Source of the DNA: Serpens gallinarum | GTDB lineage: Bacteria > Pseudomonadota > Gammaproteobacteria > Pseudomonadales > Pseudomonadaceae | Direction: 5' to 3' | NCBI RefSeq assembly: GCF_014836765.1 | Contig: NZ_JACSQG010000006.1 | Location: forward strand, 62,001-126,000 | Length of the DNA: 64,000 nt | Shown here: positions 2,032 to 4,020 of the stretch, one piece after another | Numbering within the stretch: the first letter of the stretch is position 1 | Layout: each line of letters opens with the position of its first letter | The notes under the pieces: model-generated | Database searches by the model: none | The model's input: only the letters and a program-made list of their open reading frames with translations | What the model was told of the DNA's origin: nothing | Made by a program: the position numbers and the translations under genes

Positions 2032-3126
2032 CTAGCCGTGCCGCAGGCGTTGCGCCGTTTCCAGCAACAGCTGTTCGGTGCCGCTCCAGCCCAGGCAGCC
2101 GTCGGTAATCGATACACCGTATTGCAGCTCGCCGGATAGCGGCTGGCAGCCGTCGAACAGGTGGCTTTCCAGCATAACGGCGCGCAGGCTGGCATCGCCG
2201 GCCAGGCGCTGGTCGATCACCTCGTGCAGCACCGCCGGCTGGCGTAGCGGGTTCTTGCCGCTGTTGGCGTGGCTGCAATCGACCATGATCCGTGGAGTGA
2301 TACCTGCTTTCTCCAACGCAGCGTGTGCCGCCTGGACGCTGGCGGCATCGTAGTTCGGCCCCTGATGGCCGCCGCGCAGTACCAGATGGGTGTCGGGGTT
2401 GCCGAGGGTTTCCACCAAGGCCGCGCGGCCTTGCAGGTCGATGCCGAAGTGCTGGTGAGGATGGGCGGCCGAGCGCATGGCGTCACTGGCAATGCCCAGG
2501 CTGCCGTCGGTGCCGTTCTTGAACCCCACCGCCATGTCCAGGCCGCTGACCAGCTCGCGATGCACCTGGGATTCGCTGGTGCGCGCACCAATTGCCGCCC
2601 AGCCCAGCAGGTCATCGACGTAGCCTGCTACCAAAGGCTGCAGCAACTCGCTGGCCAGCGGCAGGCCCAAGTCGAGCATCTCCAGCATCAATCGGCGCGA
2701 CAGTGCCAATCCCTCTGCCATATCGCCGCTGCCGTTCAGATGCGGATCATAGACCAGCCCTTTCCAACCGACGGTGGTGCGCGGTTTTTCAATGTAGGCG
2801 CGCATGACCAGCAACAGCTGATCATCTACTTGGGGAGCCAGTTCGGCCAGGCGCCGCGCGTAGTCGAGGGCGGCATCGGCATCGTGAATGGAGCAAGGGC
2901 CGATCACCACCAGCAAGCGTGGGTCGTCGCCGTTCAATACGTTGCGGATGGTCTGGCGCTGATGCTGTACCTGGGCCGCCACGGCGCGGCTCAAAGGCAG
3001 GCGCTGGCGAAGTTCGGCGGGGCTGGGTAGAGGCTGGGTGCTGCGTCGACCCTGGTGGGGTTCGTCAACGGGCAGCTCAACAGCGTGCAGGTGCGGGATG
3101 TTCAGGGCGGATACGGAAGAGTTCAT
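2032..3126 (-). CDS. aroF: Class I 3-deoxy-7-phosphoheptulonate (DAHP) synthase
   Basis: It condenses phosphoenolpyruvate with erythrose 4-phosphate to DAHP, the first step of the shikimate pathway. Visible family motifs are GPCSIHD, the EKPRTTVGWKGL loop, GARTSESQVHR, KNGTDG, LRGGHQGPNYD and DCSHANSGK. The ATG at 3126 follows a GAGGA ribosome site and gives 364 residues, close to the usual 350-360. An upstream in-frame extension is leader, not protein. The leader carries two aromatic-rich small peptides and a terminator, suggesting control by aromatic amino acid supply. Which amino acid inhibits the enzyme cannot be read here, so the symbol is approximate. Confidence 0.93.
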   Translation of the reverse strand: MNSSVSALNIPHLHAVELPVDEPHQGRRSTQPLPSPAELRQRLPLSRAVAAQVQHQRQTIRNVLNGDDPRLLVVIGPCSIHDADAALDYARRLAELAPQVDDQLLLVMRAYIEKPRTTVGWKGLVYDPHLNGSGDMAEGLALSRRLMLEMLDLGLPLASELLQPLVAGYVDDLLGWAAIGARTSESQVHRELVSGLDMAVGFKNGTDGSLGIASDAMRSAAHPHQHFGIDLQGRAALVETLGNPDTHLVLRGGHQGPNYDAASVQAAHAALEKAGITPRIMVDCSHANSGKNPLRQPAVLHEVIDQRLAGDASLRAVMLESHLFDGCQPLSGELQYGVSITDGCLGWSGTEQLLLETAQRLRHG

Positions 3127-3169
3127 TCGGGCGTCCTCGGCCGGCGCGGGATGGTCCGCGCGCGGCGTT

Positions 3170-3271
3170 CTATCTGGTTGTTCGTTGCAGTGGTGTGAGT
3201 GCGTGGGTCGCGTGGCTAAATCGCCAGCCGAGGTAACGGGAAGAGCTTTGGTAGGTGCGGTAGCTGTACAT
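3170..3271 (-). CDS. Tyr-rich short leader ORF (33 aa) before aroF
   Basis: A 33-codon frame begins MYSYRTYQSSSRYLGWRFSH, with four Tyr, one Trp and one Phe in the first 18 residues. An AGAGGA ribosome site lies 6 nt before its ATG. It ends 43 nt before the aroF start, and a GC hairpin (GCGCGG-ACCATC-CCGCGC) follows it just ahead of the aroF ribosome site. It lies downstream of the terminator at 3324-3355. The composition fits a sensory leader peptide whose translation is coupled to aroF, but this is inference. Confidence 0.5.
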   Translation of the reverse strand: MYSYRTYQSSSRYLGWRFSHATHALTPLQRTTR

Positions 3272-3323
3272 GGTTGAATCCTCTGTGAAATCGAATGGCC
3301 GTTTTTGGTGGCCGGAAAAAACA

Positions 3324-3355
3324 AAACCCCCGGTCGGGTTGCCGACCGGGGGTTT
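3324..3355 (-). terminator. Rho-independent terminator / attenuator upstream of aroF
   Basis: A perfect 14-bp stem (AAACCCCCGGTCGG with CCGACCGGGGGTTT) closes a 4-nt loop. On the minus strand it is followed by TTTTGTTTTTT, a strong intrinsic terminator. It stands between the leader peptide ending at 3405 and aroF, the position of a transcription attenuator. Upstream, 3388-3395 and 3371-3378 could pair over 8 bp with one G-U to form a competing structure. Confidence 0.85.
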
Positions 3356-3404
3356 CGTGGAACTGTGGTAGGCGACCCTGCTGAGGCGGGCCGCCTGATG
3401 AGTA

Positions 3405-3539
3405 TCAGGCCAGCCCGTGGCTAAACCAATACCCATAGAAATAACCCAACGCCGAAAGCGCCAACACGCCGACACCCGCTATCCGGGCACGGGTGGCCTC
3501 GATAGACGTGTGAGCATGGATGGAAGCAAGGTGCGGCAT
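3405..3539 (-). CDS. Aromatic-rich leader peptide (44 aa), putative attenuator
   Basis: A 44-codon frame with a good GGAG site 8-11 nt before the ATG ends in GYFYGYWFSHGLA, so three Tyr, two Phe and one Trp codons are clustered just before the stop. The terminator at 3324-3355 begins 50 nt downstream. This is the layout of a ribosome-stalling attenuator for aromatic amino acids ahead of a DAHP synthase. The middle (IAGVGVLALSALGYFYGYWF) is hydrophobic, so a small membrane protein is the alternative. Confidence 0.55.
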   Translation of the reverse strand: MPHLASIHAHTSIEATRARIAGVGVLALSALGYFYGYWFSHGLA

Positions 3540-3672
3540 TGAGAAACTCCGTTGAATGAGAGTGAACTTACCCCAACTCGTATGACGATTCAACTCGGCA
3601 ATAGAGGGTTCGAGGCGTCTATTCAGGCGAAGGCGCATGGTTTTCCCTGTCCATGCGCCTCCGTACGGCCTG

Positions 3673-4020
3673 CTAGCAATCTGGCTCTGGAGCAACCAGC
3701 TCTTGGGTCACGCCCCAGCCATCGAGCACGCCTCCCAAGGGTTCAACCAGGTTTTCCAGGTCATGCTCGAAGTCGCCGATCCCCGAATGAGTCGCGTACA
3801 TCACCTTGCTGACTTGCAGATTCCAGGCGCCATCGGTGCGTGGGCACACCTGCGCATTGAGCGATTCACCACGAAAATTTCTGGCTGCCACACGTGCCCG
3901 ATCCTCATCCGGGAAGATGGCGTAGAACTCGATGGGATGAACCCGGGCGAAGTCGAAACCGCCCTCTTTCATACGGCGCAGAACGGTATTGCTGACATCT
4001 TCGTGAAAGGCTGTGCTCAT
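3673..4020 (-). CDS. rraB: RraB family regulator of ribonuclease E
   Basis: This 115-residue acidic protein belongs to the RraB family (regulator of ribonuclease activity B), whose members bind and modulate RNase E in the cytoplasm. The family look is seen in the N-terminal helical part (HEDVSNTVLRRMKEGGFDFA), the central FYAIFPDEDRARVAA and the C-terminal GIGDFEHDLENLVEPLGGVLDGWG. ATG at 4020 follows a GAGGAG ribosome site; a longer in-frame extension has no comparable site. It is transcribed leftward as a single gene. The assignment is by overall resemblance, without a catalytic motif. Confidence 0.75.
   Translation of the reverse strand: MSTAFHEDVSNTVLRRMKEGGFDFARVHPIEFYAIFPDEDRARVAARNFRGESLNAQVCPRTDGAWNLQVSKVMYATHSGIGDFEHDLENLVEPLGGVLDGWGVTQELVAPEPDC

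Follow-up and report, generated by a model that had tools for sequence, protein, structure and literature searches.

The stretch upstream of aroF at 3539-3316 on the minus strand is very probably a ribosome-mediated transcription attenuator in which one leader peptide would read the charging of tRNA-Phe, tRNA-Tyr and tRNA-Trp, as judged from its sequence and from modelled RNA folding. The RNA annotated as P15 is very likely the terminated product of this leader. Between the terminator and the gene lies a previously unnoticed, apparently translated second frame (leader 2), which probably adds a further aromatic checkpoint, and this tandem arrangement is the most surprising part of the system. 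With such an attenuator, a single leader peptide could take the place of separate isoenzymes and repressors in adjusting the first committed shikimate step to all three end products. Besides aroF the genome has one more class I DAHP synthase gene and a gene of class II; no such aromatic leader was seen in the 300 nt examined ahead of the class I paralogue's start. The parts of the first leader and the regulated gene are as follows.

3547..3550, minus strand: Shine-Dalgarno site of leader 1, GGAG, 7 nt before the ATG (read from the sequence)
3405..3539, minus strand: leader 1 frame of 44 codons, MPHLASIHAHTSIEATRARIAGVGVLALSALGYFYGYWFSHGLA, ATG at 3539, with its C-terminal aromatic cluster kept in 79/79 named aroF loci
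3423..3443, minus strand: putative regulatory codons TAT TTC TAT GGG TAT TGG TTT (Y F Y G Y W F), unique in the window and placed by the ribosome-position scan
3408..3416, minus strand: segment 0 (GGGCTGGCC), formed by the final codons of leader 1, partner of segment 1 (duplex permutation z = -8.0)
3388..3396, minus strand: segment 1 (AGGCGGCCC), partner of segment 0 or segment 2 (folding and permutation tests)
3371..3378, minus strand: segment 2 (GGGTCGCC), partner of segment 1 (anti-antiterminator) or of segment 3 (antiterminator) (folding and permutation tests)
3336..3343, minus strand: segment 3 (GGCAACCC), top and loop of the terminator stem, antiterminator partner of segment 2 (covariation z = -7.4)
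3316..3355, minus strand: intrinsic terminator with a 14-bp stem, a 4-nt loop and an TGTTTTTT tail (stem covariation at 6 pairs, 0/500 shuffles)
2032..3126, minus strand: aroF, the putative target of the attenuator, a class I DAHP synthase (3-deoxy-7-phosphoheptulonate synthase) (PF00793, E 2e-72; TIGR00034 and NF009395 above cut-off)

The first-pass annotation had described a 44-codon frame with a good ribosome site and an aromatic YFYGYWF cluster ahead of a DAHP synthase gene, and both descriptions hold. The frame ends in YFYGYWFSHGLA, also written GYFYGYWFSHGLA. Among the 108,889 stop-free seven-codon stretches in the six frames of the window (the whole 64-kb stretch of DNA analysed), YFYGYWF is the sole one with at least six aromatic residues that include F, Y and W. 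Two hallmarks of an attenuator are thereby present: a short translatable leader with a Shine-Dalgarno site upstream of aroF, and a cluster of end-product codons near its end that is conserved as well as unique in the window. Leader 1 and the terminator occur in all 79 named aroF loci that were counted (80 were fetched, L054 without its upstream part), from Pseudomonas to the Halomonadaceae, with a spacing of 41-66 nt past the stop codon. A conserved small membrane protein, the reading that the first-pass annotation had set against its own, was rejected; conservation is limited to the aromatic C-terminus and the frame stays with aroF, a DAHP synthase gene adjoining P15 directly downstream in 32/32 loci fetched. 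A simple scan upstream of leader 1 found no consensus promoter. An RraB-family gene (regulator of ribonuclease activity B; 3673-4020, minus strand; PF06877, E 3.4e-22) lies upstream of the leader on the same strand.

An intrinsic terminator stands between leader and gene, 49 nt past the leader 1 stop. Its arms, 3355-3342 and 3337-3324, enclose a loop at 3341-3338, the T-rich tail reaches 3316 and aroF starts at ATG 3126; the earlier outline of a 14-bp stem with a U-rich tail about 50 nt past the frame, followed by aroF, was thus accurate. Six pairs of the stem are changed on both sides, a count equalled in none of 500 shuffles. Five segments build a chain of mutually exclusive helices, namely 0:1, 1:2, 2:3 (the antiterminator) and 3:4 (the terminator). 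The 8-bp pairing of 3371-3378 with 3388-3395 (GGGTCGCC with GGCGGCCC), offered in the first-pass annotation as a possible competing pairing, does exist, but it is the anti-antiterminator (1:2), the competitor of the antiterminator. Folding and permutation tests rejected it as the antiterminator itself and assign that part to 2:3, the pairing of 3378-3371 with 3343-3336.

The duplex permutation test compares native partners with partners drawn from other sequences. Over 27 sequences it gave z -8.0 for 0:1, z -4.7 for 1:2 and z -4.9 for 2:3, with 0/5,000 permutations as good in each case. Over 57 sequences the antiterminator 2:3 covaries (z -7.4, 0/10,000 permutations as good), and its compensated versions include GGGTTGCC/GGCAACCC, GGGCTGCC/GGCAGCCC, GTGCTGCC/GGCAGCAC and GACTGCC/GGCAGTC. 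Column by column, covariation of this helix is modest by itself in an alignment of 35 sequences, because two mid-helix mismatches persist in many Pseudomonas sequences. The leader therefore holds an antiterminator that excludes the terminator and is kept by compensatory change, as expected of an attenuator. Aligned across relatives, as the first-pass annotation had advised, the leader shows both the conserved aromatic codons and the covarying stems.

The choice of helix follows the position of the ribosome in silico, by equilibrium folding, and does so non-uniformly among relatives. At this locus the predicted antiterminator pairs number 8.2-8.6 while the A site lies on the codons of YFYGYWFS, 4.6-4.7 on the codons immediately upstream of the cluster and 3.4-4.7 from H through the stop; values farther upstream are variable. 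Over 80 sequences, mean pairing of 1:2 and 2:3 is 0.17 and 0.63 with the ribosome (A site) at the Trp codon, and 0.76 and 0.12 at the stop. Under this simple folding model L154, L156, L179 and L181 show a weak switch or none, and in the window the antiterminator peaks at a predicted value of only about 0.4 per base. Ribosome footprints of 12 or 13 nt were assumed, and the outcome at the Trp codon of the window depends on the choice: with a footprint one base larger and a shorter upstream stretch, 1:2 is predicted there instead. The finished terminator is the most stable structure at every ribosome position (predicted about 0.94 at equilibrium), so that control must be kinetic. Taken together, the leader frame with its aromatic codons, the terminator and the alternative pairing have been kept as a set, the pairings covary, and the predicted folding tracks the ribosome, which supports the ribosome-mediated attenuation first suggested for this stretch.

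The proposed mechanism would run as follows. With all three aromatic amino acids plentiful, the ribosome would reach the leader 1 stop and cover segment 0; segments 1 and 2 would then pair, the terminator would form, and transcription would end about 190 nt upstream of aroF with release of the P15 RNA. With any one of the three in short supply, the ribosome would stall within YFYGYWF and 0:1 would pair, which would leave segment 2 free for segment 3 at the top of the terminator, and RNA polymerase would continue into aroF. The analysis shows the parts, how they are conserved and covary, their place next to aroF and a predicted effect of where the ribosome stands; from there we infer the starvation response and its co-transcriptional kinetics.

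Past the terminator, the transcript that enters aroF would carry a second set of elements.

3279..3283, minus strand: Shine-Dalgarno site of leader 2, GAGGA (read from the sequence)
3170..3271, minus strand: leader 2 frame of 33 codons, MYSYRTYQSSSRYLGWRFSHATHALTPLQRTTR, with Shine-Dalgarno site and start codon in 75/79 named loci
3217..3226, minus strand: leader 2 core TGG CGA TTT A, nearly invariant in the alignment and single-copy in the genome
3140..3166, minus strand: GC-rich hairpin from the leader 2 stop to the aroF Shine-Dalgarno site, with compensatory changes in Pseudomonas judged by eye
3134..3138, minus strand: Shine-Dalgarno site of aroF, GAGGA (read from the sequence)

Leader 2 is absent from four Salinicola loci (L092, L099-L101) and present in the other 75 of the 79. 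Of 76 sequences, the window counted, all keep its frame open, against 7 and 11 for the two alternative frames. The TGGCGATTTA core, which has no Rfam entry, is nearly invariant from Pseudomonas to Halomonas and also precedes aroF in four further families (f20, f37, f39 and f44). A pattern search found no other copies of the leader 1 core or of the leader 2 core in the genome; a 26-nt pattern search across the order, with two mismatches allowed, returned mostly chance matches. The arms of the 3140-3166 hairpin look compensated (GCCGCGCGG/CCGCGCGGC, ACCGCGCGG/CCGCGCGGT and GCTGCGCGG/CCGCGCAGC in L033, L038 and L040).

It is plausible that leader 2 is a second aromatic checkpoint that acts on translation. 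With rather less than even confidence, a tandem control of aroF is proposed for Pseudomonas, Halomonas and their relatives, in which the P15 transcription attenuator would be followed by a translation-level leader 2 with a TGG-CGA-TTT decoding core, both sensing Phe, Tyr and Trp; for the P. fluorescens group and the Halomonadaceae an H-type pseudoknot immediately in front of the ribosome is part of the proposal. This possible pseudoknot, CGGTCGG..GCCACC.CCGACCG..GGTGGC, lies directly 3′ of the leader 2 core in those two groups, in a 67-nt stretch that is free of indels in 37 of their 38 distinct sequences (for example L107:2323-2389 and L058:2343-2409). Its complementarity is kept in 94% of cells, against 21-53% when the pairing is slid, but its covariation does not exceed that of shuffles, and the pseudoknot is therefore a proposal.

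There is also a substantial probability, a little under one half, that leader 2 has no regulatory role and is translated just as a spacer, shielding the RNA or providing translational coupling to aroF, a reading with no bearing on the explanation of leader 1. It is favored by a simple folding scan, blind to pseudoknots, in which accessibility of the aroF Shine-Dalgarno site did not depend on the position of the ribosome on leader 2. On that result the leader 2 stage was rejected as a switch of Shine-Dalgarno accessibility. No intrinsic terminator was found after leader 2, and in many Halomonadaceae, Halomonas included, the leader 2 stop overlaps or almost touches the aroF start, as a coupling spacer would have it. 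A spacer does not account so readily for the composition of the frame, in which aromatic residues make up 36% as far as WRF and 0.5% of the remainder, compared with 3.6% in AroF, nor for the codons of the core, where TTT is kept in 76/76 and CGA in 75/76 although CGA makes up only about 4-6% of Arg codons. Three other roles for the leader 2 stage were tried and rejected: a T-box reading of GGTGGC (no Rfam match), a pairing of TGGCGA with TCGCC(A) of leader 1 (no covariation; Halomonas has TTGCCT), and programmed frameshifting at CGA TTT A (the canonical slippery site is absent). With the identity of a rare codon kept over several families, the role of leader 2 as a post-attenuator decoding site becomes a testable question.

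Returning to leader 1 and its proposed attenuator, a covariance model search of the order found the leader in six families (f7, f20, f36, f37, f39 and f44) besides the home family f1, the support in f7, f36 and f39 being one or two loci each. Inspection of loci from these further families confirmed a DAHP synthase gene together with a leader that holds all three aromatic residues. In L177, a diverged locus of family f36, the DAHP synthase gene is preceded by two aromatic leaders in a row, ...NAYFYFWQFR and then MNRVFYSYFGNFYGFYWFTKTKANRPITLR, separated by a terminator. From Pseudomonas through the Halomonadaceae to these further families, the diverged clusters include FYFGYWF, VFFWWFGYGFYF, GWWFGYGYYF, YWQFGFGYFYF and AYFYFWQF, and Phe, Tyr and Trp are kept in every one. 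This bears on whether one amino acid, for example Tyr or Trp, is truly sensed while the remaining aromatic codons are passengers. Attenuators commonly sense a single amino acid, and the ribosome-position scan puts the Trp codon near the switch. Nevertheless, a single-residue sensor is unlikely, since all three residues persist while the leaders diverge and are reordered (YFYGYWF, VFFWWFGYGFYF, YWQFGFGYFYF, AYFYFWQF) and the whole cluster, codon by codon, falls inside the predicted sensing interval.

The same RNA has a name in the Rfam database.

3327..3447, minus strand: match to Rfam RF00627 (Pseudomonas sRNA P15), the 3′ part of the putative terminated leader transcript (98.3 bits, E 3.4e-20)

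The match, which answers the earlier suggestion of a covariance-model check, covers the aromatic codons through the terminator and exceeds the 70-bit cut-off. P15 scores above cut-off in 196/248 genomes of the home family, and five genomes (G028, G130, G167, G182 and G246) have two matches apiece. For this region of the window and for 16 related loci, no Rfam model other than P15 passed its cut-off, neither a T-box nor another riboswitch; nor did the region match any Rfam leader family that unites Phe, Tyr and Trp codons. It has been described as an RNA of unknown function that is raised in an hfq deletion mutant of P. fluorescens (2017, PMC5627042); on the attenuator reading, such a rise could mean more termination or a stabler terminated leader. 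That P15 is a trans-acting small RNA, its gene standing before aroF by happenstance and the short frame being incidental, would fit this rise and the Rfam entry, which catalogues it as an sRNA. Such a role is very improbable against a conserved frame with a Shine-Dalgarno site, its aromatic codons, the alternative pairings and the 32/32 adjacency to a DAHP synthase gene. A metabolite-binding riboswitch, suggested from shared synteny (2008, PMC2527527), would explain the position upstream of a biosynthetic gene and a terminator with an alternative pairing, but is extremely improbable for a leader 1 with no conserved aptamer-like core beyond its coding part and switching helices, a linker that varies in length and sequence, and aromatic codons that rank among its most conserved parts. 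No description of P15 as a leader-peptide attenuator was found in the searchable literature; the original P15 paper lies outside it and may contain one. The attenuator reading gives this widely annotated Pseudomonas "sRNA" a testable function.

The enteric trp, pheA and his attenuators combine a leader frame rich in codons for the end product with alternative RNA helices and an intrinsic terminator that precedes the first biosynthetic gene. The aroF leader follows the same plan, its mutually exclusive helices forming a chain like that of his. It differs from them in joining Phe, Tyr and Trp codons in one peptide, in probably governing the common first step (DAHP synthase) and in being followed by a second leader frame. 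Among published cases upstream of aroF, the uORFC-13-1 motif of Acholeplasma comes nearest; for it, an upstream frame with at least one Phe codon was proposed before an aroF terminator (PMC8632094). The likeness consists of the upstream frame and the terminator; in contrast to the present leader, the motif is confined to Acholeplasma, involves Phe only, has another structure and is described without a second leader. P15 of Rfam is the same sequence as the aroF leader, but has been presented as an sRNA (PMC5627042) or a possible riboswitch (PMC2527527). The peTrpL/rnTrpL system of Sinorhizobium is a leader-peptide attenuator like the present one but for Trp only, and its products are reported to act in trans (PMC7298713). 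By analogy with peTrpL, the terminated aroF leader RNA may have a secondary role in trans.
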